Assembly: GCA_029246545.1 (NCBI GenBank)
Contig: JAQWMX010000008.1
Span: 1-64,000, forward strand
Reading direction: 5' to 3'
Source of the DNA: Gammaproteobacteria bacterium
Lineage (GTDB): Bacteria; Pseudomonadota; Gammaproteobacteria; Pseudomonadales; Pseudohongiellaceae
Length of the DNA: 64,000 bases
The first letter of the stretch is position 1; each line of letters opens with the position of its first letter. Under the pieces are notes generated by a model, which saw nothing but the letters and a program-made list of their open reading frames with translations, had not been told where the DNA came from and made no database searches. Of the stretch, positions 45,500-60,094 are shown one piece after another. The translations under genes were made by a program, and so were the position numbers.

Positions 45500-46129
45500 G
45501 TGAAAAATATGGAATCTGCTGGTTTCCTGGGCAAGCTAAAAGCCGAGGATCATCAGGCTTTTAATCAACTAGTGCAGCAATATCACCAGTCTTTGGTTAC
45601 TGTGGCACGGCCAATTGTTGGTGATAGTTGGGCAGAGGAAGTTGTTCAGGAAGCTTCGGTTTCCATTTTTAAAGCTTTACCAAAATTTCAGGGGCGCTCT
45701 ACATTAAAAACCTGGATATACACCATTTTAAAAAATGAAGCCCTCAGCCGCTACAAAAAACAATCTAAAACTGTCTCCTTAGAAGGCCAATTACCTGATG
45801 ACCAACAGGTTCGTAGCGTTGATGACTGGTTAAATGATGCTTTCAAAAAAGATGGGCATTGGATTAATCCACCTTCTGGCTGGGATCTGAGTTCGCCAGA
45901 GGCTTTAATGCAAGGTGAGCAGCTGTAAAAGTGTATTGAACATACACTAGAGATATTGAAATCGGATCAAAAAGTGGTATTTTTGTTACGCGATCAAGAC
46001 CAGCTAGATATGGAAGAAGTCTGTAACATTTTAGAAATATCTCACTCCAATCCAAGAGTACTATTGCATCGTGCGCGGCTCAAACTTTTTCAGGTAATTA
46101 ATCATTATCAGGACACGGGCGAATGTTAG
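45500..46129 (+). pseudogene. ECF sigma factor gene interrupted by an in-frame TAA
   Basis: From TTG or GTG near 45500 the frame encodes sigma-70 region 2 (F-N-Q-L-V-Q-Q-Y-H, E-E-V-V-Q-E-A-S-V, L-K-T-W-I-Y-T-I-L-K-N-E-A). It stops at TAA 45926-45928, but the same frame continues with K-C-I-E-H-T-L-E-I-L, Q-K-V-V-F-L-L-R-D and V-C-N-I-L-E-I-S-H-S-N-P-R-V-L-L-H-R-A-R, a complete region 4, ending at TAG 46127-46129. The stop sits where Gln is common, so CAA to TAA is likely. Without region 4 the protein cannot recognise the -35 element. The anti-sigma gene behind it is also broken. Confidence 0.88.
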
Positions 46130-46176
46130 CGCCATTAAACGACAATTAGATTAAAAAAGATTAGGTCGGAGAGACA

Positions 46177-46492: not shown

Positions 46493-47446
46493 GTGGCGTT
46501 GAATAAAATTCAAATTGGTATTAGTAGTTGCTTATTGGGCGAAGAAGTTCGCTATAACGGTGGGCATAAATTATCACGCTTATGTGTAAACACTCTTTCA
46601 AATTTCTTTGAATATAAATCAATCTGCCCAGAGGTTGGTATTGGTCTCGGAACTCCGCGTAAACCTATACATCTCATTGGTAGCTCTGAAAAGCCAAGAG
46701 CAGTTAATGTAAATGATGAAAGTATTGATGTTACTGATAGGCTTTTAGAATTTTCAGAACAGACTGTTCCGTCATTACAAAATCTTTGCGGATATATCTT
46801 TATTAAGGGTTCACCAAGTTGTGGATTATTTAAAGTGAAGGTTTACCAAAAAGGTAACCCACATCCTGAATATTCTGGCAGAGGTATCTACGCCAATGCG
46901 GTCACCCAAGCTATGCCTTTATTACCCGTTGAAGAGGCTGGGCGGTTGACTGATCCAGTGTTAAGAGAAAACTTTGTTACTCGTGTTTATGCTTATCACC
47001 GTTGGCAAAAACTTTTAGAAAAAGGGCTTAAAGCGTCATCAATTATCGAGTTTCATGCTTCTTATAAATATTGTTTGATGGCAAATGATCCGAAAACCTA
47101 TAATTCATTAGGTCAGTTACTGGCTGACGCTGGTAGTTATGTCGCTGATGAACTTGGCGAAAAATATTTTGCTATGTTAATTCCAGCATTAACAAAAAAA
47201 GCAACGCGTAAAAGCAATACCAACGTGTTGACTCATATCCAAGGCTATTTGAAAAAACAATTAAATGCTAAGGAAAAAGCAAAATTAGTAGAGGTGATTG
47301 AACAGTACCGAACGGGGATTGTACCTTTGGTTGTTCCGGTTACTTTACTGCAACATCATTTCACTATTCACCCAAATGACTATATAAGTAAGCAGGCATT
47401 TTTTGATCCCTATCCCCAAGAATTAAGTTTGCGTAATGCCATATGA
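46493..47446 (+). CDS. DUF523 and DUF1722 domain protein
   Basis: The 317-residue product combines an N-terminal DUF523 domain (G-I-S-S-C-L-L-G-E-E-V-R-Y-N-G-G-H-K, C-P-E-V-G-I-G-L-G-T-P-R) and a C-terminal DUF1722 domain (V-Y-A-Y-H-R-W, F-H-A-S-Y-K-Y-C-L-M-A-N-D, ending in Y-P-Q-E-L-S-L-R-N). This fused form is often linked to photolyase genes, and here phrB starts four bases before its stop. The start is GTG 46493. Three Cys in the DUF523 part may bind a metal or cluster. It is predicted to belong to the photooxidative regulon through the promoter upstream. Biochemical role unknown. A partial diverged copy of its 3' end is found at 56139. Confidence 0.88.
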   Translation: MALNKIQIGISSCLLGEEVRYNGGHKLSRLCVNTLSNFFEYKSICPEVGIGLGTPRKPIHLIGSSEKPRAVNVNDESIDVTDRLLEFSEQTVPSLQNLCGYIFIKGSPSCGLFKVKVYQKGNPHPEYSGRGIYANAVTQAMPLLPVEEAGRLTDPVLRENFVTRVYAYHRWQKLLEKGLKASSIIEFHASYKYCLMANDPKTYNSLGQLLADAGSYVADELGEKYFAMLIPALTKKATRKSNTNVLTHIQGYLKKQLNAKEKAKLVEVIEQYRTGIVPLVVPVTLLQHHFTIHPNDYISKQAFFDPYPQELSLRNAI

Positions 47447-48870
47447 GTGTACAGCTTGTTTGGTTAAGAAATGATCTACGCATAGAAGATAACTCAGCAT
47501 TAATTCAGGCACTAAATCAAACTGAAGAAAAAGGCCCTTGTGTAGCTATTTATATAGCTACACCTAAGCAATGGCGAGCGCATGATGATGCGCCAATCAA
47601 AATAGATTTCTGGCGAAGAAATTTAATAGAGTTACATTCAAGTTTAAAAACTCTTGGTGTTCCCTTACACTATTTTCAGGTTGCTACTTATGCTGAGGTC
47701 CCTCAGTTAATTCAAAATATTATTAAAAGTTGGCATGTGGATAGCTTACATTGCAATGCTGAATACCCTTTGAACGAAAAGAATAGAGATGATGCTGTAG
47801 AGGCCCTTTGTAAGGAATATGATATTAGTTACCGTTGCTATCAAGATCAGTGCTTACTACCGCCCGATTTTGTCTTAACTGGTGAAGGTAATCCTTTTAA
47901 AGTTTTTACGCCTTATGCCAAAAAAACCAAGCTTATACTAGAGTCTGCTGGCCCAATTAAAAGCTATGGTTTAAACATTAAGACAGTTAAGAATGAATAT
48001 TCAATCGATTTTCCTGTATTAGACGAGCAACTAGAACTTAATAAAATTGATTGGCCTAAAGTGGAAGTTTGGTGGGATCAGCAGTGGCCCGCAGGTGAAA
48101 GAGAGGCTCACAAACGTTTAAAGAGTTTTGTTAGTTCACAAATTCAAAATTATAAAAGTGCACGAGATATACCCGCCCTAAATGGTACTAGTTCCTTATC
48201 AGCATATTTAGCCAGTGGAGTTATTTCTGTACGCTCATGCTGGGAAGCGGCAGGTTCAGAAGGCCTTGATGAATCTGCGCGAACTTGGCGCAATGAATTA
48301 TTGTGGAGGGATTTTTATAAATATGTAATGTTTCACTATCCACATGTTTGTATGCATCAAGCTTGGAATAGTAATTATGACAATATTCCATGGAGAGAAA
48401 ATCACGAGGATTTTCAGCGTTGGTGTGACGGAGAAACTGGCTTTCCACTTATTGATTCTGCTATGAAGCAGCTTATAGAAACTGGATGGATGCATAATCG
48501 CTTACGTATGGTTGTCGCCATGTTTCTTAGTAAAAATTTATTGCTTGATTGGCGCTGGGGTGAACGCTGGTTCATGCAGAATTTAATTGATGGTGATTTT
48601 TCTGCCAATAATGGAGGTTGGCAGTGGAGTGCGTCAACAGGTACAGATGCTGCACCTTATTTCAGAATATTTAATCCTATCCGTCAGTCAGAACGTTTTG
48701 ATAGTAAAGGTGAATTCATAAAATCTTATATACCAGCATTGAATTTGGAGAATGAGCGTAGTGTGCATGACCCGGCAAAACTTAAAACAAGTTATTTTGA
48801 CCCTTTAATAGATTTAAAATTTTCGCGTGAGCGTGCTTTGACTGTGTTTAAAGAATTTAAAGGCGCCTAG
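47443..48870 (+). CDS. phrB: Deoxyribodipyrimidine photolyase (class I CPD)
   Basis: Photolyase splits cyclobutane pyrimidine dimers using blue light and FADH-. The 475-residue product has the N-terminal antenna domain (Q-L-V-W-L-R-N-D-L-R) and the FAD domain: G-T-S-S-L-S-A-Y-L-A-S-G near 246, W-R-N-E-L-L-W-R-D-F-Y, W-M-H-N-R-L-R-M, W-G-E-R-W-F-M-Q-N-L-I-D-G-D-F-S-A-N-N-G-G-W, and R-I-F-N-P. Length is normal. Its start overlaps the DUF523/DUF1722 gene (ATGA). Co-expression with a ChrR-type sigma regulon fits known singlet-oxygen responses. The first 80 residues have a diverged duplicate at 56216. Confidence 0.94.
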   Translation: MSVQLVWLRNDLRIEDNSALIQALNQTEEKGPCVAIYIATPKQWRAHDDAPIKIDFWRRNLIELHSSLKTLGVPLHYFQVATYAEVPQLIQNIIKSWHVDSLHCNAEYPLNEKNRDDAVEALCKEYDISYRCYQDQCLLPPDFVLTGEGNPFKVFTPYAKKTKLILESAGPIKSYGLNIKTVKNEYSIDFPVLDEQLELNKIDWPKVEVWWDQQWPAGEREAHKRLKSFVSSQIQNYKSARDIPALNGTSSLSAYLASGVISVRSCWEAAGSEGLDESARTWRNELLWRDFYKYVMFHYPHVCMHQAWNSNYDNIPWRENHEDFQRWCDGETGFPLIDSAMKQLIETGWMHNRLRMVVAMFLSKNLLLDWRWGERWFMQNLIDGDFSANNGGWQWSASTGTDAAPYFRIFNPIRQSERFDSKGEFIKSYIPALNLENERSVHDPAKLKTSYFDPLIDLKFSRERALTVFKEFKGA

Positions 48871-48894: not shown

Positions 48895-49569
48895 TTAAAG
48901 TGCTTGCGCTGATTGTTTAAATAGGGGCATAAGTAATCTATAAAACCAGTTCGTCATTTGAATGGGTTCTTCAAGCGTAGATAGGCATAAGCAGTCTTCA
49001 TCTTGTGAGGCGACAGGCGTATGAATTTCACCACTTGTGCGCACAATAAAATCACCGGCTAGATAATGGTCGTCTTGATCAGAAAAGCTGCCTTTTAGTA
49101 CGACAGTAATTTCATCGCCTTTGTGGAGATGTCTTGGTACGTTACCACCAGCTTTAATATTAATAAGAGAGGTCTCTCGAATAGAATCGCCAGTATTTAA
49201 TTCTGAATAACGAAAGTTTTTGCCGATGCCTTGCCAATTAAGCGAATCAAGATCATTATTAGTTAGCTTATTTAATGCCGCAGGCAGGGGTGAAGATTTA
49301 GTTGAAGCTGTGATCACCTCGCTATTAAATTGGGCATTGTTTTCCGGCATCGAATCAATTCGTTGCATTAAGGAAGAAAAATCTTGCTCCAAATTCATTG
49401 GAGAAATTTTATCAAACAGAACAGAACCTAAATCAGTTAACTGTTCTACCTTTTGTTTACAATCATCGCAATAGTGCAGGTGTGCAGAAACACAAAGTGC
49501 TTGTGATAAGGGCAGACTACCAGCTGCGAAATCGGAAATAAAACGAGTATCAGGGTGATATTTAGTCAT
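48895..49569 (-). CDS. chrR: ChrR-type zinc anti-sigma factor with cupin domain
   Basis: ChrR holds its ECF sigma inactive until singlet oxygen or peroxides are sensed. The 224-residue product has the N-terminal anti-sigma zinc domain with H-L-H-Y-C-D-D-C (His/Cys ligands) and a C-terminal cupin with N-V-P-R-H-L-H-K-G-D-E, L-A-G-D-F-I and G-E-I-H-T-P-V, the metal site of the sensing domain. Two adjacent late Cys (C-L-C) are present. It lies downstream of the sigma gene by 22 bp on the same strand. The assignment is strong; the inducing signal is inferred from the family and from the photolyase and CFA neighbours. Confidence 0.9.
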   Translation of the reverse strand: MTKYHPDTRFISDFAAGSLPLSQALCVSAHLHYCDDCKQKVEQLTDLGSVLFDKISPMNLEQDFSSLMQRIDSMPENNAQFNSEVITASTKSSPLPAALNKLTNNDLDSLNWQGIGKNFRYSELNTGDSIRETSLINIKAGGNVPRHLHKGDEITVVLKGSFSDQDDHYLAGDFIVRTSGEIHTPVASQDEDCLCLSTLEEPIQMTNWFYRLLMPLFKQSAQAL

Positions 49570-49591
49570 AATTTAAGGTTTGCTAATTGAG

Positions 49592-50209
49592 TTAGACATC
49601 AATGGTTAATTTAAGTTTTTGAAGCGCTAATCTAGCTCTTGATTTAACTGTGCCTAGCGGTAACTTCAGTTTTTTGGCTGCTTCTGAGTGAGAAAGGCCA
49701 TCAAGAAAAATTGTTTTTATAACGGTGAGTTGTTCTATAGGAAGCTCGTTAATTAACTCTAAGATTCTTTGCTTATTGCTAATTGCTTCTAACTGGTTAT
49801 AAACATCATCATTTTGATCAGGCCAAATATCGTCTGCAGTCAATACGTTCTCGTCAAACTCGCTGACATTAGCTTTCCACTGTTTAGAGTACTTCCGGAT
49901 TAGGTCAATACGCGTATTTCGAGCGATAGTAAAAATCCAAGTGCCTGCAGCAGCCTTATCAGGCTTGAATGTATGAGCTTTGTTCCAAACCTTGATCATA
50001 GTTTCCTGAGCAAGTTCTTCAGCGAGTATTTCAGCCTTTGAAAGCTCAGTCACTTTAAATGCATAAGCTTTAATTAAAGGTGCAAAATGTTCAAATATTT
50101 CTTTGAAAGCAGCTCGGTTTCTATCCTGAGAAATAGCAATCAATAAGGTATTCCACTTGTTTGCAGCTTTTACTTTGTCAGGTTCTTTGTGTTGCATCAG
50201 TTGCAGCAT
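49592..50209 (-). CDS. rpoE: ECF sigma factor of the RpoE/ChrR (singlet-oxygen) type
   Basis: The 205-residue product has sigma region 2 (E-E-L-A-Q-E-T-M-I-K-V-W, T-W-I-F-T-I-A-R-N-T-R-I-D) and region 4 (L-P-I-E-Q-L-T-V-I-K-T-I-F-L-D-G-L-S-H-S-E-A-A, P-L-G-T-V-K-S-R). Its gene is followed by chrR, the diagnostic partner, and is divergent from a six-gene target operon. A promoter of the same type as those of its presumed targets (TGATCC, 17 bp, CGTA) lies about 47 bp upstream of the start, suggesting autoregulation. The role in photooxidative stress is inferred by analogy with Rhodobacter. Confidence 0.9.
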   Translation of the reverse strand: MLQLMQHKEPDKVKAANKWNTLLIAISQDRNRAAFKEIFEHFAPLIKAYAFKVTELSKAEILAEELAQETMIKVWNKAHTFKPDKAAAGTWIFTIARNTRIDLIRKYSKQWKANVSEFDENVLTADDIWPDQNDDVYNQLEAISNKQRILELINELPIEQLTVIKTIFLDGLSHSEAAKKLKLPLGTVKSRARLALQKLKLTIDV

Positions 50210-50255
50210 AGCATGATGTCCGTTATTTCTTGTGTAGACCTTAATTCTCTTAATT

Positions 50256-50282
50256 TACGCAGTTAAGCTCTATAACGGATCA
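50256..50282 (-). promoter_or_regulatory. Putative autoregulated promoter of the sigma-chrR operon
   Basis: On the minus strand, TGATCC (complement of 50277-50282), a 17-bp spacer and CGTA (complement of 50256-50259). The -35 is identical to the RpoE-ChrR consensus as I know it. The start would fall about 40 bp before the sigma ATG. Confidence 0.7.
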
Positions 50283-50316
50283 CTTCATGTTAAATTTTTT
50301 TAAGGGTTCTTTCATT

Positions 50317-50342
50317 TAATCCAAAAGTAATCTATTTGCGTA
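50317..50342 (+). promoter_or_regulatory. Putative ChrR-controlled promoter of the NTF2-SDR-CFA operon
   Basis: TAATCC at 50317-50322, a 16-bp spacer and CGTA at 50339-50342, about 32 bp before the first ATG at 50374. It uses the same elements as the two other promoters found in this region. Confidence 0.65.
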
Positions 50343-50373
50343 CCAATGTGCAAATATAAATTAGGTAAGAAAC

Positions 50374-50832
50374 ATGACTAATGTAGCTAAGCTAAATATC
50401 TCGGCTGTTTCTGAGAAAGGTATCGTTGCTAAGATTATGGACTTCTACAGTGAGTTCTCTAAAGAGTCTATTTCATCAATCGATGAGCTTTATACCAAAG
50501 ATATCGAGTTTATTGACCCTGTGCATACCTTGATAGGCAGCCTAGCGTTAAAAGCATACTTCAAACGCATGGCTAGCAATATGCTGCATTATGAAATGCG
50601 GTATCTCGATATTGTTGAATCTGAAGGCAGTGCACATCTCAGCTGGGAAATGACTTTTGCTCACAAAAGCTTAAACGGTGGGCAGGCTATTTTGGTTAGA
50701 GGCATGTCATTGATTAAATTCACTTCAAAAGTTTATTACCACGAGGATAGCTACGATTTAGGCGCGCTTGTTTATGAGCATGTCCCCTTATTCGGCAAGA
50801 TTACCAAATTTCTAAAAAGCCGGATGCAATAA
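50374..50832 (+). CDS. NTF2-like (SnoaL-type) protein of the photooxidative operon
   Basis: The 152-residue product has an NTF2-like fold: I-M-D-F-Y-S-E-F-S, a Y-T-K-D-I-E-F-I-D-P-V-H strand, Y-F-K-R-M-A-S-N-M and V-Y-Y-H-E-D-S-Y-D-L-G-A-L-V-Y. Proteins of this kind are the regular first gene of the operon with SDR, FAD-oxidoreductase, DUF1365 and CFA-like genes found next to ECF-ChrR pairs. No signal peptide. The next gene starts 14 bp downstream. Its role in lipid modification is not established; small-molecule binding is typical. Confidence 0.85.
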   Translation: MTNVAKLNISAVSEKGIVAKIMDFYSEFSKESISSIDELYTKDIEFIDPVHTLIGSLALKAYFKRMASNMLHYEMRYLDIVESEGSAHLSWEMTFAHKSLNGGQAILVRGMSLIKFTSKVYYHEDSYDLGALVYEHVPLFGKITKFLKSRMQ

Positions 50833-50846
50833 CAAAAGCATATTTT

Positions 50847-51632
50847 ATGGAATTAACGAATCAACAGAAATATTGGATAACCGGAGCAACCTCTGGTATC
50901 GGCAGAGCGCTATGTATTGAGCTTGCTCAGTTAGAACATAAGCTCATTATAAGTAGCCGCAATGCTGAAGAATTGGGGAAGTTAGCATTAGAGTATCCTA
51001 AGTTAATCCAAATCTTACCTTGTGATGTGTCAAATAATGAAGAAATGGCTGAATTATTTAGCACTAAGATGCCAACGCTTAAAAATCTTGATGGTATCTT
51101 TTTATGCGCAGGGGTCTGTGAATATATTGATCTACCAAAGTTTAATTTGGATGCTTTCCAAAAAGCAGTGGCTATCAATTATCTAGGTACGGTGAATTCC
51201 TGTGCTGCAGCATATCCTTTATTAAGCAATTCAGTTTCGGACATGCCAAATAAAAAACCGTTTATTGCTGGGCTTTGTTCAATGAGCTCCTATCTTGGTT
51301 TTCCACGAGCAGAAGCTTATGGCGCCTCAAAGGCGGCCATGGCTTATTTTTTAAACTCTTTGCGAGCGGATATAGGCGACAAAATTGATGTCATTCCAGT
51401 GTATTTGGGTTTTGTAAAAACACCAATGACAGCGCAAAACGATTTCCCTATGCCTTTTTTAATTAGTCCTGAAGAGGCAGCTAGAGGAATTTTAAATAAA
51501 TTAACAAAACGCCCCTTAAGAATTAATTTACCTTGGAGACTGCATGCAGTGCTGGGTACTTTTAGTAAATTACAGAGATTATGGTACCAAACGATTATCC
51601 CGAGAATGCGGCGCTCAAGGAATGTGACTTAA
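50847..51632 (+). CDS. SDR-family NAD(P)-dependent oxidoreductase
   Basis: The 261-residue product has the full SDR layout: the cofactor motif W-I-T-G-A-T-S-G-I-G-R near residue 10, I-F-L-C-A-G-V, the Ser in S-M-S-S-Y and the Y-G-A-S-K catalytic pair near 156-160. It differs from the beheaded SDR at the left edge in being complete. It lies second in the operon headed by the NTF2-like gene. In comparable clusters the SDR accompanies fatty-acid modification enzymes. Substrate unknown. Its TAA stop overlaps the ATG of the next gene. Confidence 0.9.
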   Translation: MELTNQQKYWITGATSGIGRALCIELAQLEHKLIISSRNAEELGKLALEYPKLIQILPCDVSNNEEMAELFSTKMPTLKNLDGIFLCAGVCEYIDLPKFNLDAFQKAVAINYLGTVNSCAAAYPLLSNSVSDMPNKKPFIAGLCSMSSYLGFPRAEAYGASKAAMAYFLNSLRADIGDKIDVIPVYLGFVKTPMTAQNDFPMPFLISPEEAARGILNKLTKRPLRINLPWRLHAVLGTFSKLQRLWYQTIIPRMRRSRNVT

Positions 51633-52906
51633 TGAAAATAGCAGTAATTGGTAGTGGTATATCAGGTATGACAGCAGCCTATTATCTATCCGAAAATCAT
51701 GAAGTCACCTTGTTTGAGGCTGGCGACAGATTGGGTGGTCATACGGCCACTATTGATGTTGAAGAAGGTGAAAAGACAATACCTGTAGATACGGGTTTTA
51801 TTGTGTTTAATGACTGGACCTACCCAAACTTTATTGAGCTGCTAGATGAGCTTGGCGTAGATAGTCAGCCAACCCAAATGAGTTTTAGTGTGAGTGACAA
51901 GCAGTCTGGCATTGAATATGCAGGCACAAACTTAAATACCCTATTTGGTCGCCGCAAGAATTTGTTTTCAATTAAGCACCTTAAGATGCTTAAGGAAATC
52001 GTCACTTTTAATAAACAAGTTGAAGGTCACCTAGCTCAAATGCAAGATGATAATCAATTAACCTTGGGGCAATATCTTGAGACTTATACTTACTCAGAAG
52101 CTTTTAAGAATTTATATATAGTTCCGATGGGCTCAGCAATTTGGTCAGCTAAGCAAAGCGATATGTTAAAAATGCCATTGAGCTTTTTTGTGAAATTTTT
52201 TAGAAACCATGGCTTGTTGAATTTAAAAGAAAGACCACAATGGCGAGTCATAAAAGGTGGGTCTAGTGCTTATATTGAGCCCTTAATTGCACCCTATAAA
52301 GATAGAATTCGCTTAAATACGGCCGTCTATGAAGTTGATAGAAATATTACTGGCTCATATGTCACTTTAAAAACCAAAGAAGGAGAGGAGGCATTTGATC
52401 ATGTGATATTTTCTTGTCACAGTAATCAAGCATTGGCTTGCTTGAATGATGTTAATAAATTAGAAAAAGAAATATTACAGTCTATTCCTTATAGCAATAA
52501 CGAAGTTGTATTGCATACCGATAAAGGTGTTTTGCCGAAGACGAAGCGTTGTTGGTCAAGCTGGAATGTTAGCTTAGGAGATCAAAATGAAATACCTTGT
52601 CTTAGTTATAATATGAATATTCTTCAAGGTATTGATAGTGATCAAACCTATTGTGTCACTTTAAATCAGTCTGATTGTATTGACCCACAAAAAGTAATTG
52701 GCGTATACAACTACGAGCATCCTGTTTTTACCACTGAGAGTGTAGAAGCACAGAGTAGATGGGGCGAGATAAATGGCAAGAGAAACACCTGGTTTTGTGG
52801 GGCATACTGGCGTAATGGTTTTCATGAGGATGGTGTTTGGAGTGCGCGTAGAGTAAGTGACACTCTTGAGCAGGTAGCTGTTAAGTCAACATTGAGTGCT
52901 GCTTAA
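51632..52906 (+). CDS. FAD-dependent amine oxidase-like oxidoreductase
   Basis: From ATG 51632 (TAATG overlap with the SDR gene; an upstream GTG-like start is not needed) the product is 424 residues. It begins I-A-V-I-G-S-G-I-S-G-M-T-A-A-Y, the Rossmann FAD motif, followed by T-L-F-E-A-G-D-R-L-G-G-H and a C-terminal F-C-G-A-Y-W-R-N-G-F-H-E-D-G-V. Relatives sit beside CFA-like methyltransferases in ECF-ChrR regulons and have been connected to furan fatty-acid formation in Rhodobacter; that exact role here is inference. It is third in the operon and probably acts on membrane lipids or carotenoid-like substrates. Confidence 0.88.
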   Translation: MKIAVIGSGISGMTAAYYLSENHEVTLFEAGDRLGGHTATIDVEEGEKTIPVDTGFIVFNDWTYPNFIELLDELGVDSQPTQMSFSVSDKQSGIEYAGTNLNTLFGRRKNLFSIKHLKMLKEIVTFNKQVEGHLAQMQDDNQLTLGQYLETYTYSEAFKNLYIVPMGSAIWSAKQSDMLKMPLSFFVKFFRNHGLLNLKERPQWRVIKGGSSAYIEPLIAPYKDRIRLNTAVYEVDRNITGSYVTLKTKEGEEAFDHVIFSCHSNQALACLNDVNKLEKEILQSIPYSNNEVVLHTDKGVLPKTKRCWSSWNVSLGDQNEIPCLSYNMNILQGIDSDQTYCVTLNQSDCIDPQKVIGVYNYEHPVFTTESVEAQSRWGEINGKRNTWFCGAYWRNGFHEDGVWSARRVSDTLEQVAVKSTLSAA

Positions 52907-53697
52907 TGAAAGTTTCTGGTTCAATCAATAAAAGTGAATTTAACAGCGCTATTTATGACGGAGTAGTAAGTCATTGTCGTTTGCAACCAATAGAGCATAG
53001 TTTTCATTACAAGGTTTACATGATGTTCATTGACCTTGCAGAAGCAGAAAGCTTGTTTAAAAAATCATGGTTTTGGTCTTTTAAGAAATGGAATTTAGCT
53101 TGTTTCATCAGAAAAGATTATTTAGGTGATGAAAATATTTCTTTAGATGAATCGGTGAGAAATAAGGTAGAACTTGAAACAGGAAAGCGTCCTTCAGGAA
53201 GAATATGTGTTCTAACTAATTTTCGATACTTTGGCTATATCAACAATCCAATCACGTGCTATTACTGTTACAACAACGAAGACCAATTAGAGTATTTAGT
53301 AGCGGAAGTAACTAACACTCCTTGGGGAGAAAGGCATGCCTATGTGATTCCTTGTGATAATGATCAAGGTTATATCAATGGGAGTTTCACTAAAGAACAT
53401 CATGTTTCACCTTTTATGCCCATGCAAATGGAATACTCTTGGCGTAGTAACTCCCCCAAAGAAAGATTAAACATATTAATCGATACTTTTCATCAAGATA
53501 AAAAATATTTTACTGCTAGTCTCATGCTGAATCGTAAGAAAGCAAGTCCAGCCAATCTAACTAAGGTGATGGTTGCTTACCCATTAATAACAATCAAAGT
53601 GCTTGCTGGCATATATTGGCAGGCATTTTTGCTATGGATTAAAAAAGTACCATTTTATTCAAATCCTAAGTCTTTAAGAGCACAGCAAAATAAATGA
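52906..53697 (+). CDS. DUF1365 domain protein
   Basis: The 263-residue product matches DUF1365: I-Y-D-G-V-V-S-H-C-R-L-Q-P near the start, F-H-Y-K-V-Y-M-M-F-I-D-L, R-I-C-V-L-T-N-F-R-Y-F-G-Y-I-N-N-P-I and E-H-H-V-S-P-F-M-P-M. DUF1365 genes are nearly always next to FAD-oxidoreductase and CFA-like methyltransferase genes, as here. A hydrophobic stretch near the C-terminus (residues about 222-244) may associate with the membrane. Its start overlaps the previous stop (TAATG). The biochemical role is unknown. Confidence 0.88.
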   Translation: MKVSGSINKSEFNSAIYDGVVSHCRLQPIEHSFHYKVYMMFIDLAEAESLFKKSWFWSFKKWNLACFIRKDYLGDENISLDESVRNKVELETGKRPSGRICVLTNFRYFGYINNPITCYYCYNNEDQLEYLVAEVTNTPWGERHAYVIPCDNDQGYINGSFTKEHHVSPFMPMQMEYSWRSNSPKERLNILIDTFHQDKKYFTASLMLNRKKASPANLTKVMVAYPLITIKVLAGIYWQAFLLWIKKVPFYSNPKSLRAQQNK

Positions 53698-53734
53698 ATA
53701 TGAATATTTTAAGTAATAGGAATGGAGCTAAACC

Positions 53735-55012
53735 TTGAGAGAATCTACTTTAAATCCTGCTAAAAATAATTTTAAAACCAAAGTTATCTTTCCTGACATC
53801 GCCCGTAAGACAATTTTAAGCGTACTTAAAAATATTAAGCAAGGTTGTCTAGTGATAGAAGAGGGATCTGAGAAAATGATTTTTGGAGAGCTGTCTTCGC
53901 AGGAAGATTTAAGAGCGCATGCGGTAGTTCATGACCCAAAGGTATACTCAATGATGCTTAGAAATGGTGATTTAGGTGCTGGGGAGGCCTATATGCTTGG
54001 ATTGTGGTCTTCACCTCAAGTGCTGAATGTGGTTCGAATTTTCGTATCAAATATGCATGCTCTTGAAAGAATAAATGGACAAAAATCTCTGTGGCAAAAA
54101 TTTTCTGGTTCGCTGACTCATTGGATGAGAGAAAATTCGCAGAAAAATGCGAAACAAAATATTGCTGCTCACTATGATCTTAGCAATGATTTCTTCTCGC
54201 ATTTTTTAGATGAAACGATGGCTTATTCATCAGGTATATTTTTAAGCGATGAGCATAGTTTGCAGCAGGCTTCAGAATATAAATTTAAACATATTTGTGA
54301 CAGATTGCAGTTAAATGAATTAGATCACCTCCTGGAAATTGGCACTGGTTGGGGTGGCTTAGCGATTTATGCAGCCAAACATTATGGTTGTCGAGTAACG
54401 ACCACAACTCTGTCAGAAGAACAGTTTGCTTATGCAAAAAAATGGGTTGCACGTGAAGGACTTGAAGATAAAATTAATCTGTTGCTAAAAGATTATCGCG
54501 ATCTCGAAGGTAGATTTGATAAGTTGGTGTCAGTTGAAATGATTGAGGCTGTCGGTGCTAAGTACTATTCAAAATATTTTTCTAAATGTAATGAGTTGTT
54601 AAATGAAGATGGCTTGATGTTGATACAAGCAATCACCATTAGTGACCAGCGTTTCCAACAGTCGGTAAAATCTATGGACTTTATCAAGTGCTATATTTTT
54701 CCGGGTGGCCAGTTACCTAGCAATAGCGTAATCAGCAAGCATATTGCTAATGATACTAATATGCAGTTAGTCGGCATGGAAGATATCACTCTAGATTACG
54801 CGAAAACTCTAATGCATTGGCGTAAAAGGTTTTTTGAAAAAATTGATGAGGTAAAACAATTAGGCGTCGATGATACCTTTATAAGAATGTGGGAATATTA
54901 TTTATGTTTTTGTGAAGGTGGGTTTCGTGAAAGGGTTATCCATACCGGACAATTCCTAATGGCGAAACCAGGCTTTAGAGCATTACCAAGGATAAAAGTA
55001 GACCCGTCATAA
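53735..55012 (+). CDS. Cyclopropane-fatty-acid synthase-like SAM methyltransferase
   Basis: The 425-residue product is a CFA-synthase-family methyltransferase that acts on unsaturated acyl chains of phospholipids. The SAM motif is L-L-E-I-G-T-G-W-G-G-L near residue 200, with Q-N-I-A-A-H-Y-D-L-S-N-D-F-F before it and V-S-V-E-M-I-E-A-V-G after it; I-F-P-G-G-Q-L-P-S is also conserved. The start is TTG 53735, set by GGAGCTAAACC seven bases ahead. It is the fifth gene of the operon and follows DUF1365. Known relatives are induced by singlet oxygen. Cyclopropane versus methylated or furan product cannot be told. Confidence 0.9.
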   Translation: MRESTLNPAKNNFKTKVIFPDIARKTILSVLKNIKQGCLVIEEGSEKMIFGELSSQEDLRAHAVVHDPKVYSMMLRNGDLGAGEAYMLGLWSSPQVLNVVRIFVSNMHALERINGQKSLWQKFSGSLTHWMRENSQKNAKQNIAAHYDLSNDFFSHFLDETMAYSSGIFLSDEHSLQQASEYKFKHICDRLQLNELDHLLEIGTGWGGLAIYAAKHYGCRVTTTTLSEEQFAYAKKWVAREGLEDKINLLLKDYRDLEGRFDKLVSVEMIEAVGAKYYSKYFSKCNELLNEDGLMLIQAITISDQRFQQSVKSMDFIKCYIFPGGQLPSNSVISKHIANDTNMQLVGMEDITLDYAKTLMHWRKRFFEKIDEVKQLGVDDTFIRMWEYYLCFCEGGFRERVIHTGQFLMAKPGFRALPRIKVDPS

Positions 55013-55013
55013 T

Positions 55014-55550
55014 ATGGCTAGAATGAAAGGTATTGGCTTTATATTGTGTGGGGTTCTCATTCTTTCTTCTTGTACTGGCATTCCTGAGGGAATACAGCCC
55101 ATTACCCATTTTGAAATAGAAAAATATCTTGGTCAGTGGTATGAAATTGCCAGATTAGACCATTCATTTGAAAGAGGGATGGCAGGGGTTACTGCTACTT
55201 ACAGCATGAGAGAAGATGGTGGAATAAAAGTCTTGAATGAAGGGTTTTTAGCTAATGAAAATTTCTGGGACCAAGCCGAAGGTAAAGCTTATTTTATTAG
55301 CCAAGGGGACGTGGCGCATCTAAAAGTGTCTTTCTTTGGTCCATTCTATGGTTCCTATATTGTATTCCAGCTAGGTGATAATTATGACTATGCTTTTGTT
55401 ACGAGCACGAATAAGTCTTACTTATGGTTTTTATCAAGAGAAGCAGAAATAAATGAAAGCTTGAAACAGGAATTTATTGAGTTAGTAACGGGCCTTGATT
55501 ATAAAATTGACGAGCTAATCTGGGTTGACCATAACATTGTTAAAGATTAG
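55014..55550 (+). CDS. blc: Lipocalin family lipoprotein (Blc-like)
   Basis: The 178-residue product has a lipobox (L-I-L-S-S-C), so it is probably attached to the outer membrane. It is a bacterial lipocalin with the G-x-W motif L-G-Q-W-Y-E-I-A-R-L-D-H-S-F-E and the later Y-D-Y-A-F-V-T-S and Y-L-W-F-L-S-R segments. Blc binds lysophospholipids and helps during membrane damage. Its ATG lies one base after the CFA-like gene stop, so it ends the lipid-repair operon. Confidence 0.9.
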   Translation: MARMKGIGFILCGVLILSSCTGIPEGIQPITHFEIEKYLGQWYEIARLDHSFERGMAGVTATYSMREDGGIKVLNEGFLANENFWDQAEGKAYFISQGDVAHLKVSFFGPFYGSYIVFQLGDNYDYAFVTSTNKSYLWFLSREAEINESLKQEFIELVTGLDYKIDELIWVDHNIVKD

Positions 55551-55582
55551 TTATTTTCCTTCTAGTTCATCGAGATCTTTAT

Positions 55583-56044
55583 TTATTTGATCGGCAGATA
55601 AATGTCAGTCAGCATATCGTTATCTTTTACATCAGGGCCAACATTGATGTAATGAAAAAAGAAAGGGTAGTCTCTTAACTCTTCGCCACTTTCAGGTAAC
55701 CATTCACGATAAAGATAATCAGCTGCAGGTATGTAGTCTCTTGACCCATGATGTCCTATTACTGCGCAACGGCCTTCGGGTATTATTTTATTAACAACGC
55801 CTTGTGGGTTTTCAGCAATTTCTGCACCTACAGAAACACAAATATCTAATCGATAATCTTCGGGTAAAGTGCTGGCTGGATCACTGTAATGGATGCCGTA
55901 AGTATTACCTTCACTTGGCTTATACCCATATGCTTGTCGCCATTCTATGAATTTTTTTGATGTGTTATATGTTAGATGCTCTGGACCATGATGTTCCAAA
56001 GCGGCAATCTTAGTTTCCGGGAAATTAATTATTTTTACTTGCAT
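55583..56044 (-). CDS. GyrI-like small-molecule-binding domain protein
   Basis: The 153-residue product has the GyrI/SbmC (AraC effector-binding) fold: V-K-I-I-N-F-P-E-T-K-I-A-A-L-E-H-H-G-P near the start, Y-G-I-H-Y-S-D-P, Y-R-L-D-I-C-V-S-V, G-R-C-A-V-I-G-H-H-G-S and a C-terminal D-I-Y-L-P-I-K. No helix-turn-helix is present, so it is a stand-alone effector-binding domain like those that protect gyrase or hydrolyse small substrates. It is convergent with the lipocalin gene and not part of the operon. Confidence 0.85.
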   Translation of the reverse strand: MQVKIINFPETKIAALEHHGPEHLTYNTSKKFIEWRQAYGYKPSEGNTYGIHYSDPASTLPEDYRLDICVSVGAEIAENPQGVVNKIIPEGRCAVIGHHGSRDYIPAADYLYREWLPESGEELRDYPFFFHYINVGPDVKDNDMLTDIYLPIK

Positions 56045-56138
56045 GTTTTGACTCCTGTTAATATTTTTTAAATCTACTAAGAGGTTAAATATTTCCCAAT
56101 CAAGGTTGGCTCTAAATTCGCTGGGAGTTTGTTTTAAT

Positions 56139-56219
56139 GTTCATCCGAACGAATATATTGCAAAACAGGCATTTTTTGATACTTACCCCCAAGAATTAAG
56201 TTTGCGTAATGCAATATGA
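56139..56219 (+). pseudogene. DUF1722 3' end, diverged duplicate fragment
   Basis: This stretch encodes V-H-P-N-E-Y-I-A-K-Q-A-F-F-D then Y-P-Q-E-L-S-L-R-N-A-I and TGA, matching the last 27 codons of the DUF523/DUF1722 gene at 47366-47446. Nucleotide identity is high but clearly not complete. The A-T-A-T-G-A junction with the following photolyase-like start is kept as in the intact locus. Only the tail remains; upstream sequence is unrelated. Confidence 0.8.
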
Positions 56220-57007
56220 GTCTACAACTTGTTTGGTTTAGAAATGATCTGCGCAAAGAAGACAACACGGCGTTAATTCAAGCAATAGATAAGGGGCCTT
56301 GCGTAGCAATCTATATTGCCACTCCAGATCAATGGCAAGCCCATGATGATGCGCTAATCAAAATAGATTTCTGGCGTAGAAACTTAACTGAGCTACAGCA
56401 AAGCCTTAAAAAAATAGGCGTTTCATTATTTTACTTTCAGGTTCCAACTTATGCTATTGCGGGAAGAATGTCGACCGAAGATACCTTTGTATTCTTTTTT
56501 TCAGGACACGGGGATCAAGTTACCAGGGCTGATGGTTTTGAAAGCAGTGACCCAGATGGTCAGGATGAAATAATTGAGCTTTATGATGGCGCAGTTTTGG
56601 ATAACGAATTGAATGACATGCTAGCGCAGATAGATGTTGGTAAGACCTTAATTATTCTTGATTCCTGTTTTAGTGGAGGCTTCTCTAAAGATGTTATTTC
56701 AGTACCAGGGCGTATGGGTCTATTTTCCTCTGAAGAAGATGTGACTTCGCAAGTCGCTTTTAAATTCCAGGCGGGCGGTTATCTCTCATACTTCTTTGAA
56801 GAGGCTTTAACAGATACATATGCAGATAGCGATCAAGACGGTAGCCTCAATGCAATTGAGCTTAGTCAGTTTTTACATGAGCGTTTCAGACTAGATGTGA
56901 AATCTTTCGGAGATGAAAACTATGTAACAACTGGTGGGCCGCAGAGTAATTATCAGCATTTAGTTGTTGATAGAGGCAGCTTGGATCCTTTTGATATTCT
57001 TTTCTAG
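56216..57007 (+). CDS. Photolyase N-terminus fused in frame to a caspase-like (C14) domain with EF-hand
   Basis: Residues 1-80 are a diverged copy of the PhrB antenna-domain start (Q-L-V-W-F-R-N-D-L-R, F-W-R-R-N-L). From about residue 81 the chain becomes a caspase-fold peptidase: F-F-F-S-G-H-G-D-Q with catalytic His98 and I-I-L-D-S-C-F-S-G-G with catalytic Cys151. Residues 204-215 fit an EF-hand loop (D-S-D-Q-D-G-S-L-N-A-I-E). The join falls near 56456 and keeps the frame. The caspase part has lost the N-terminal strand and any export signal, so this is probably a chance fusion made by deletion between a second DUF1722-phrB copy and a metacaspase gene. The catalytic dyad is intact, so activity cannot be excluded. 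Confidence 0.8.
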   Translation: MSLQLVWFRNDLRKEDNTALIQAIDKGPCVAIYIATPDQWQAHDDALIKIDFWRRNLTELQQSLKKIGVSLFYFQVPTYAIAGRMSTEDTFVFFFSGHGDQVTRADGFESSDPDGQDEIIELYDGAVLDNELNDMLAQIDVGKTLIILDSCFSGGFSKDVISVPGRMGLFSSEEDVTSQVAFKFQAGGYLSYFFEEALTDTYADSDQDGSLNAIELSQFLHERFRLDVKSFGDENYVTTGGPQSNYQHLVVDRGSLDPFDILF

Positions 57008-57068
57008 GCCATTTGTATCATTGCTAGCCCAACAAGATTAGTACTTAAAAATGCTGAGATTGGCGGGT

Positions 57069-58100
57069 TTAAGCAACTTCCCAAGTGTGCCCACTACGCA
57101 GTAAGTCATTTATGCTGCCTTTGTCTTTACCCTGGCGTAATTGTTCACGTTGAATAATTAAATCATCAACGTAATTTGGTTTTGGGTTGTGATAGATCAC
57201 ACCGACAGCAACAGGGAAGTCTTCCCCGTCATCATTATTTCCGCCCATGGCACCGATTAATTGAGCCAGCGTAAGATTAGTTTGGTCATGAACCAATACT
57301 TCTTCTAATGAGCAATCTTCACCAATAGTGACAATTTCCAGTGCTAGAGATTCTATGTTTAGTCTAATGCCTTTATTTTTTTCTTTACCAAAAACTAGAG
57401 GTTGACCGTGTTCAATTTCAACACGAAAGTCAGCAGCAATTTTTTTATCTTTGACGTTTTCAAAAATGCCATCGTTATAGATTGGGCAGTTTTGTAAAAT
57501 TTCAACAAAGGAAGCACCTTCATGTGCATGAGCTGTTTTAATCACTGCGCTCAAATGTTTCATTTCAGTATCGATCGAGCGAGCTACATATGCAGCACCA
57601 GAACCTAAGGCAACTGCACATGGGGAAAGAGGCAAGTCGATTGAACCTTGCGGTGTAGAAGGCGAGCGTGTGCCGACTTTAGAAGTAGGTGAATATTGCC
57701 CTTTGGTTAATCCATAAATTTCGTTATTAAATAAAAGTATATTCAAGTTAACGTTACGGCGCAGCGCATGCATTGTGTGATTACCACCAATACTTAATGC
57801 ATCACCATCGCCAGTAATAACCCAAACATCTAATTCTGGATTGGCCAGTTTGACGCCAGTCGCAATTGATGGCGCACGACCATGGATAGTGTGGAAACCA
57901 TAAGTATTCATGTAATAAGGAAAGCGTGATGAACAGCCAATGCCTGAAACAAACACCTGATTTTCTTTTGGTTGATCGAATTCCGGCATGAGTTTCTGAA
58001 TAGTCTTCAAAATGGCATAGTCACCACAACCTGGACACCAACGTACTTCCTGGTCAGAGGTGAAGTCTTTAAGAGTAAGTTTGTTGACTGCCTGGTTCAT
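57069..58100 (-). CDS. korB: 2-oxoacid:ferredoxin oxidoreductase subunit beta (KorB-like)
   Basis: The beta subunit binds thiamine diphosphate and an iron-sulfur cluster. The 343-residue product has W-C-P-G-C-G-D-Y near residue 21, G-I-G-C-S-S-R-F-P-Y-Y near 53, the TPP motif G-D-G-D-A-L-S-I-G-G-N-H and later N-N-E-I-Y-G-L-T-K-G-Q-Y-S-P-T. Length and wording fit the two-subunit 2-oxoglutarate type (KorAB), which replaces or supplements the 2-oxoglutarate dehydrogenase step. It follows korA by 63 bp on the same strand. Substrate (2-oxoglutarate versus pyruvate) is inferred. Confidence 0.9.
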   Translation of the reverse strand: MNQAVNKLTLKDFTSDQEVRWCPGCGDYAILKTIQKLMPEFDQPKENQVFVSGIGCSSRFPYYMNTYGFHTIHGRAPSIATGVKLANPELDVWVITGDGDALSIGGNHTMHALRRNVNLNILLFNNEIYGLTKGQYSPTSKVGTRSPSTPQGSIDLPLSPCAVALGSGAAYVARSIDTEMKHLSAVIKTAHAHEGASFVEILQNCPIYNDGIFENVKDKKIAADFRVEIEHGQPLVFGKEKNKGIRLNIESLALEIVTIGEDCSLEEVLVHDQTNLTLAQLIGAMGGNNDDGEDFPVAVGVIYHNPKPNYVDDLIIQREQLRQGKDKGSINDLLRSGHTWEVA

Positions 58101-58163
58101 AAATTTTTCCTACGTTCTCTTCTGAATTTGGTTTTAACTTCAGAGTTTTAGCATTTATATAGC

Positions 58164-60002
58164 TTAATTTAGCTCAGTTTTAATCGCACTTTCTATTTCG
58201 CTAATTTTAAAAGGTTGTCCTGAAACTTTATTTAAGGCTTTTGCATCAAGCAGGTATTCTGAGCGGATTATTTTAACTAGTTGCCCAGTATTCATTTCAG
58301 GAATCAAGATGTTGTCATAAGCTGAAAGTAATTGATTCAGGTTTGCTGGTAAAGGCCACATGTGACGAATGTGGATATGAGCAACATCCAAACCTTGTTT
58401 AATACTTCTCTTAACTGCTTGGTGGATAGCGCCATAAGTTGAGCCCCAACCGACGACGGCCAATTTACCACTATTATTACCCAAGTGAACTTTTTGTAAG
58501 GGAATATCATCAGCAATATTATCGATTTTTGCTTTTCGAGTATCAGTCATTTTTTGATGATTGTCGGGGTCATAACTAATGTCGCCGGTATCATAACTTT
58601 TCTCGATACCACCAATACGATGCTCTAGACCTTCCGTGCCAGGTTTTGCCCAAACTCTTGCTAGAGTTTCAGCATCACGTAAAGATGGTGTAAAACCTTC
58701 AGGTTTGTCATGGAAGGTTACTGGGAATGCATCATATTCATCAAAGTCAGGAATTAACCAAGGCTCGGAAGCGTTGGCAATATAACCATCTGACAGCAAC
58801 ATAACAGGCGTCATATATTTGGTGGCTAATCTTACTGCTTCAATAGCGGCATCGAAGCAATCACCTGGGTGACTTGATGCTACTACTGGCAATGGTGTAT
58901 CGCCATGTCGACCATAAATAGCCTGCAACAGATCAGATTGTTCGGTTTTAGTAGGGAGCCCAGTTGAGGGGCCGCCTCGTTGTGTATTAACGACAATTAA
59001 GGGTAGTTCAGCAGACACAGCTAGTGAGATAGCTTCTTGTTTTAGTGCAATTCCTGGCCCGGCACTTGATGTAACACCTAGTGAACCTGCAAATGACGCG
59101 CCGATGGCAGCACAGACTGCAGCAATTTCATCTTCAGCTTGAAAAGTAATGACGTCAAACTCTTTTCTGGCAGCAAGTGTATGCAACAGGCTGGAGGCTG
59201 GGGTGATTGGGTATGAAGCAAATAAGACACCAAGGTTTGCGAGTTGGCCACCAGCGATTAGTCCCCAGGCCAAAGAGGTAGAACCGTCCATATTGCGATA
59301 GGTTCCAGGTTTTTGCTCGGCCTTGGGTACTTTGTAAACTTCAATACCACTAGGTAATTCTGCTGTTTCTGCATAGGCGTTGCCGGCGTTCAAAGCAGCT
59401 ACGTTGGCATTGGCAATTTCTGGCTTATTGGCAAATTTAGCTTTTAAACCATCAATAGTGCTTTTTTTATCGCGATCAAATAGCCAGAAGACCAGACCCA
59501 GAGTCCACATGTTCTTACAACGTAAAGCCATTTTATGACCTAGACCAAACTCTTCAACGGCAGCAATGACCTGAGAGTGAATATCTATGGCTAGTACTTT
59601 GTAGGCATCCAAAGAGCCATCTTCAATAGGGTTACTTTCATATTTAGCTTTAGACAGATTTTTATCATTGAAAGCTCCCGAATCAATAATCACTAAGCCT
59701 CCAGGAACTAGGTATTTTAGGTTGGTGATTAGTGCGGCCGGATTCATTGCAACCAGAACTTCTACTTCATCACCAGCAGTGGTGACATCTTCAGAACCAA
59801 AATAAATCTGGAAGGCAGACACGCCAAAAGTCGCACCTACCGGGGCACGAATTTCAGCCGGGAAATCTGGAAAAGTTGAAAGATTATTACCATGAAGAGC
59901 GGTTGCCAGCGTGAAGTTGGTGCCGGTTAATTGCATACCATCACCGGAGTCCCCGGCAAAACGTACAACAATATTTTGATGTTGTTCAACTTCTACAGTC
60001 AT
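58164..60002 (-). CDS. korA: 2-oxoacid:acceptor oxidoreductase subunit alpha (KorA-like, gamma-alpha fusion)
   Basis: From ATG 60002 (a TTG 15 bp upstream is less likely) the product has 612 residues. The N-terminal third is the gamma domain (F-A-G-D-S-G-D-G-M-Q-L-T-G), the rest the alpha domain with A-S-Y-P-I-T-P-A-S-S near residue 262 and A-G-P-G-I-A-L-K. This gamma-alpha fusion with a separate beta subunit is the usual KorA layout. It reduces ferredoxin during oxidative decarboxylation of a 2-oxoacid in the cytoplasm. First gene of the korAB operon. Confidence 0.9.
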   Translation of the reverse strand: MTVEVEQHQNIVVRFAGDSGDGMQLTGTNFTLATALHGNNLSTFPDFPAEIRAPVGATFGVSAFQIYFGSEDVTTAGDEVEVLVAMNPAALITNLKYLVPGGLVIIDSGAFNDKNLSKAKYESNPIEDGSLDAYKVLAIDIHSQVIAAVEEFGLGHKMALRCKNMWTLGLVFWLFDRDKKSTIDGLKAKFANKPEIANANVAALNAGNAYAETAELPSGIEVYKVPKAEQKPGTYRNMDGSTSLAWGLIAGGQLANLGVLFASYPITPASSLLHTLAARKEFDVITFQAEDEIAAVCAAIGASFAGSLGVTSSAGPGIALKQEAISLAVSAELPLIVVNTQRGGPSTGLPTKTEQSDLLQAIYGRHGDTPLPVVASSHPGDCFDAAIEAVRLATKYMTPVMLLSDGYIANASEPWLIPDFDEYDAFPVTFHDKPEGFTPSLRDAETLARVWAKPGTEGLEHRIGGIEKSYDTGDISYDPDNHQKMTDTRKAKIDNIADDIPLQKVHLGNNSGKLAVVGWGSTYGAIHQAVKRSIKQGLDVAHIHIRHMWPLPANLNQLLSAYDNILIPEMNTGQLVKIIRSEYLLDAKALNKVSGQPFKISEIESAIKTELN

Positions 60003-60094
60003 AATTGTAATTCTCAATAGATACTTTTTTAGCTCTCATCTAGTTTGTCTCCATTGAAATGAGCCAAGGAGCAGCAAGAAAATAGCGTGCGCAT

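Follow-up and report, generated by a model that had tools for sequence, protein, structure and literature searches.

Results

A photolyase start and a caspase end in one open reading frame

The stretch analyzed here (the window) is a 64-kb part of contig C12, from a genome of 2.25 Mb that is assembled in 23 contigs and has a listed contamination of 0.04. Its forward strand carries a stop-free open reading frame (ORF) of 263 codons (56216-57007), in which the ORF list and Pfam place a photolyase start before a caspase end. The first 80 codons (56216-56455, +; blastn and Pfam) belong to a second photolyase gene, phr', whose C-terminal 395 residues are missing. The remainder (56456-57007, +), assigned by homology and alignment to relatives, is the C-terminal part of a PPC-caspase gene that has lost its N-terminal part. 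Directly upstream lies what is left of a second DUF1722 gene (DUF1722', 56132-56216, +), its final 28 codons, recognized by DNA likeness to 47359-47443. These are preceded by an AraC-GyrI gene cut within its HTH (55583-56140, −; Pfam and homology), whose GyrI part (55583-56044) has kept an ATG of its own and remains an ORF.

Intact counterparts lie upstream in the same window: phr, encoding 475 residues (47443-48870, +), and the DUF523-DUF1722 gene that overlaps it (46493-47446, +), both assigned from ORFs and Pfam. The rest of this light cluster (48895-55550) is syntenic with contig C7 of the congener G004 and holds genes that we take, several from their sequence, to encode a ChrR-like protein, a sigma factor, a SnoaL-like protein, an SDR, an FAD oxidoreductase, a DUF1365 protein, Cfa and a lipocalin. 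On the other side, two genes that are presumably korB and korA (57069-60017, −) stand tail-to-tail with the chimeric ORF, in a block extending to 63912 that is syntenic with G004 contig C1.

When 56001-57010 was compared with the window by blastn, 56132-56456 aligned to 47359-47694 with 259 of 336 identities (77%), 12 gap positions and an E value of 2e-71. The copied DNA takes in the last 28 DUF1722 codons and the ATATGA overlap, the likeness ends at 56456, and its extent is far beyond chance. An earlier reading made from the sequence alone had described a copy of the DUF1722-photolyase junction, gene overlap preserved, running in frame into a caspase-like stretch; blastn, the open frame and Pfam bear this out. 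Of the extent it had given, 56139-57007, the copy itself and the ORF end hold, while the copied DNA begins at 56132. The relic was considered as a translated leader and ruled out, its own frame containing no ATG. A frame left open across one join is expected about one time in three, so no special explanation is needed for it.

Both halves of the chimera score over their Pfam cut-offs, yet as fragments. Positions 2-76 of the 164 in the DNA_photolyase profile match residues 5-78 (E 2.3e-18); only 80 of 475 photolyase residues are kept, and the FAD-binding domain PF03441, present at residues 282-470 of intact phr, is missing. Positions 65-139 of the 233 in the Peptidase_C14 profile match residues 86-159 (E 3.4e-05, 24.1 bits against a cut-off of 21.4), and from about residue 81 on the chimera aligns with caspase-domain proteins in their C-terminal part. 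Alignment to the complete caspase domains of relatives shows H98 and C151, as previously reported, at the conserved motifs SGHG and DSCFSGG. The chimera therefore carries the His-Cys dyad of orthocaspases and C14 p20 proteases, as defined in PMC5756287. It does not carry a complete p20 domain: complete relatives match the profile from position 7 or 8, and the chimera's domain is incomplete because positions 1-64 have no counterpart. The C14 peptidase domain proposed earlier thus stands as a match with its dyad, though not as a whole domain.

The missing parts were sought elsewhere in this genome. Photolyase residues 81-475 matched the intact gene only, and a caspase query from the congener G002 matched, apart from the chimera, only one other frame, of 733 aa, with 42% likeness over query residues 23-147. 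A third, weak match to the chimera lies on contig C19 (25%, E 0.0017).

Caspase relatives

Relatives of the caspase part occur in the same bacterial family, with complete members of about 760-1020 aa in the loci fetched. PPC repeats precede the caspase domain in the two frames scanned with Pfam, and many complete members have, by eye, signal-peptide-like N-termini. A model of one relative's caspase domain found metacaspases in the PDB (best E 2.3e-10). A complete relative also matched the PADLOC 'caspase' model (E 5.1e-09); the chimera gave no PADLOC match, and a role in defense was set aside for it. At four of the 19 caspase loci examined, all in genus g5 (L037, L038, L040 and L041), a frame with a GGDEF-type motif begins at most 4 bases from the caspase stop; the one at L038 is PAS-GAF-GGDEF by Pfam.

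The fusion is seen in one of the genomes searched

Both halves share a frame in this genome only, at every level searched: one of 57 genomes, one of five in the genus, one of 137 in the family and one of 390 in the order, these sets overlapping one another. The count for the order applies among the matches listed, which reach down to E ~8e-10, a level far below that at which a fusion would rank. A pattern-based scan of 84,980 species, with one genome each and possibly omitting the query's own, returned no fusion among 18 loci (17 caspase, 1 photolyase). One candidate, L043, listed with query residues from 47 on, was ruled out on finding a complete caspase N-terminus in the protein. No photolyase-caspase fusion appears in the titles or abstract openings of the literature matches listed. 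The search for further fusions, which the sequence-only reading had proposed as a check, therefore found none outside this genome, and on these searches the chimera does not represent a conserved photolyase-caspase fusion family.

Blocks that are separate in relatives meet at the chimeric ORF

Two parts of the window have syntenic counterparts in the interior of G004 contigs, 39.3-56.0 kb in C7 and 57.0-63.9 kb in C1. The light cluster and the kor-dxs locus sit within different contigs in that congener, whereas here the cluster abuts kor. A functional link between the caspase and the light cluster was rejected because in G004, G002 and G001 the cluster is not found next to kor; the caspase piece adjoins it only through rearrangement. 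The suggestion that a caspase works beside a light-stress regulon finds no support in this arrangement, nor in a caspase domain that lacks its start.

Two local differences were noted along the cluster. The second GyrI-like gene that lies between the lipocalin and AraC-GyrI genes in G004 and G002 is absent from 55550-55583 of the window, and none was matched in G001. At 45500-46130, an in-frame stop (45926-45928) closes a sigma-factor-like gene; past the stop, this frame continues with the C-terminal part found in a 218-aa G004 frame.

The interval between korB and dxs differs widely among relatives. It spans 330 bp in G004, where a caspase C-terminus and the end of another gene stand tail-to-tail with korB and dxs, respectively; the orientations of both remnants match those found here on contigs C12 and C9. 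It spans about 14-14.6 kb in G003 and G001, where a PPC gene without a C14 match adjoins korB and a gene with the G004-type end motif adjoins dxs. The G002 caspase protein has an N-terminal region similar to this dxs-side gene, whose G003 member has no Pfam match. The G002 interval measures 25 bp, with the caspase gene elsewhere. These contents suggest that the earlier arrangement had a caspase or PPC gene next to korB and that the interval readily loses DNA.

The long intervals (G003, L108, 1824-16208; G001, L109, 3093-17153) have contents of their own. The G003 proteins comprise PPC, M4 peptidase with FHA, PP2C, MotA/TolQ/ExbB, FHA, PP2C, trypsin-like with FHA, and VWA; one of the PP2C proteins matches PADLOC PDC-M21C (E 6.3e-18). 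In G001 the Pfam scan covered the PPC gene beside korB. G003, with a listed contamination of 4, carries korB and dxs twice each at similar spacing, on contigs C4 and C17.

A matching junction on a second contig

In the genome studied here, dxs is separated from korB and lies on contig C9. Its neighbors there are, in order, the end of the dxs-side gene and a second, diverged AraC-GyrI gene (AraC-GyrI'), whose match to the G004 gene stops at residue 278 of 290 and whose first part is in another frame. Past AraC-GyrI', C9 shares synteny with the part of G004 C7 that lies past the AraC-GyrI gene of G004. Contig C9 thus joins a C7-type block ending in AraC-GyrI' to the end of the dxs-side gene and dxs, and contig C12 joins the light cluster and GyrI, followed by DUF1722'-phr', to the caspase end and korB. 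Every gene cut by these junctions is truncated. Taken together, the two layouts are what one exchange between the light cluster and the kor-dxs locus would give; the loci were read from draft contigs, on which an inversion and other kinds of exchange look alike.

Joins of this kind could also be errors of a metagenome-type assembly, a concern raised by the 23 contigs and by an arrangement seen in a single genome. Yet two separate contigs hold matching halves of one exchange, and phr' and GyrI' are diverged and group with this genome's own copies rather than with another sampled species. The AraC-GyrI copy on C9 is decayed, its first part out of frame, and the listed contamination is low. Assembly error is therefore considered very unlikely.

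A probable older joint and the origin of the second cluster copy

The GyrI gene at 55583-56044 is what remains of an AraC-HTH-GyrI gene such as that of G004. Its homology to the C9 copy reaches 56140 and DUF1722 homology starts at 56132, an overlap of at most 9 bp (56132-56140). The left edge of the copied DNA, 56131/56132, looks like an older duplication joint, since a DUF1722-phr end joined to the middle of an AraC-GyrI gene would be the expected product of a tandem duplication of the cluster.

Trees group phr with phr' (support 93/93) and GyrI with GyrI' (95/95), in each case apart from G004 and G002. The joined phr and GyrI tree, which assumes that phr' and GyrI' are one copy, recovers the sister relation at 99/99; its G002 row contains partly unrelated bases in the DUF1722 stretch because the DUF1722 gene of G002 has an internal deletion. 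The interior of that DUF523-DUF1722 gene is lost (L034, 9942-10094), with matches to residues 2-40 and 303-317 only. DNA identity is much the same for the two pairs, 78.6% between phr and phr' and 78.0% between GyrI and GyrI'.

A variant compatible with the rearrangement is that the second copy was transferred from an unsampled sister species instead of arising by duplication within the lineage. The copies differ as congeneric species do (78.6%, against 79.7% between the G004 and G002 phr genes), and such divergence seems large for tandem copies open to gene conversion. Against this, each copy has the other as its nearest relative in the sampled set, and tandem duplication directly explains the DUF1722/AraC joint. 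Transfer from an unsampled sister would give the same tree picture as duplication, and we regard it as a realistic, if less probable, origin.

Selection on the two halves

Codon fits, made with custom scripts on fixed trees (two of ten inner branches starred in the caspase DNA tree), showed purifying selection on both branches, averaged over the time before and after the break. The phr' branch has an omega of 0.124, against 0.112 elsewhere, and setting it to 1 costs 2.4 log units. On the caspase branch, an omega of 1 falls short of the one-ratio fit by 3.3 log units and of the free fit by 4.5; in the free fit, the chimera branch length (at its upper bound) and the G002 omega (at its bound of 20) are not usable as estimates.

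Conservation of the caspase part was also scored by columns. It changes three of the 70 columns invariant in 22 other representatives; by the same test, which is lenient and favors members with close relatives, 21 of those 22 change 0 or 1 of 67-68 columns, and G002 changes 12 of 78. The chimera has no stop or frameshift in 263 codons, and its dyad and core are intact. This selection argues that for most of their history both halves were working genes, and the intact dyad is explained by strong purifying selection on the caspase gene over most of its branch. Were the ORF neutral after the break, its freedom from stops would cap the divergence accumulated since then at about 0.10 per site. The open frame and the selection data are equally compatible with a young pseudogene and with a retained gene, which is the main weakness of the verdict reached below.

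Expression and predicted fold

The sequence-only reading had proposed a check for an upstream promoter; the scan gave no promoter-like site upstream of the chimeric ORF. The lone site lies inside it (56547-56574), where 5.4 would be expected by chance over the region. In the intact pair the photolyase start codon overlaps the DUF1722 stop, so translation of phr is probably coupled to that of DUF1722, and nearly all of the DUF1722' gene is gone.

AlphaFold models, both built on shallow alignments, reached a mean pLDDT of 48.2 and pTM of 0.48 for the chimera (16 rows) and 64.2 and 0.69 for a complete caspase domain (14 rows). Foldseek laid the chimera model over a metacaspase across 245 columns (E 2.9e-4) with a TM score of 0.34 and an rmsd of 10.9. 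This match is too weak to use, yet it is the basis for the idea of a new-born protein considered below.

These data bear on whether the ORF encodes a working new protein, in which the photolyase beta-alpha-beta-alpha-beta unit replaces the lost caspase start and the dyad is active in the cytosol. The open frame, the dyad, the long intact core, the purifying selection on both branches and the metacaspase overlay all speak for it. But the overlay is poor and rests on a model of low confidence, the selection branches span the time on both sides of the break, and the protein is found in one genome only. It would also start where its parent's start overlapped the DUF1722 stop, with 28 DUF1722' codons left and no promoter-like site upstream. 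We judge a working protein highly improbable. Even less likely is its most specific form, a new-born protein in which half of the photolyase Rossmann-like domain would replace the start of the caspase p20 domain element for element, turning an exported caspase into a cytosolic one. With the fusion in no other genome searched and no upstream promoter-like site, a working caspase, as hinted at from the surviving frame and dyad, is not supported.

Discussion

A probable chimeric pseudogene at a rearrangement junction

The ORF is very probably a chimeric pseudogene formed at a chromosomal rearrangement junction, most likely a recent one, and the joined frame is probably without function. Accidental fusion, the cautious option of the sequence-only reading, is thus the best supported account. 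The order of events we infer begins with duplication, in this lineage, of a stretch from inside araC-gyrI to the DUF1722 end, which would have left the joint at 56131/56132. Sequence divergence would then have brought the copies to about 78% DNA identity, with purifying selection still acting on photolyase and GyrI. A later exchange, by inversion or a similar event, would have linked the second copy to a kor-dxs locus that at the time held a PPC-caspase gene beside korB and another gene beside dxs. Its products would be phr' joined to the caspase end and korB on C12, and AraC-GyrI' joined to the end of the dxs-side gene and dxs on C9, with the interiors of both loci lost.

A striking fusion of a light-repair enzyme to a caspase can thus arise from ordinary chromosome breakage, and it should not be taken as evidence of a link between caspases and light stress. 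Preservation is good in this case, since the two junctions of the exchange and the presumed older duplication joint are still legible.

Comparison with known systems

The light cluster looks related to the blue-light regulon of Vibrio cholerae. There, according to PMC5241685, blue light raises photolyase/cryptochrome operons and a CFA synthase gene, and the title of that paper names MerR and ChrR.

The closest relatives of the second half are PPC-caspase proteins of the same family (PF00656 with PF04151), to whose C-terminal part chimera residues 81-263 are 54-67% identical. The dyad and core are common to both, whereas the chimera lacks their PPC repeats, their N-terminal region and the beginning of the caspase domain. 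For the first half, the comparison is with DNA photolyase (PF00875 with PF03441) in the DUF1722-phr pair. The first 80 residues are 77% identical to intact phr, 8.8 kb upstream, and the chimera is without the remainder of the N-terminal domain and the entire FAD-binding domain.

As a whole, the locus resembles the general class of chimeric pseudogenes at rearrangement breakpoints. As in that class, truncated genes lie on either side, one joint has a short homology overlap, a matching junction lies elsewhere and relatives have no orthologues. Unlike that class, the frame here is still open, and an older joint sits about 325 bp from the newer break. What reads here as a fusion gene is the scar of a rearrangement, real and well preserved, probably without function and ordinary in kind.
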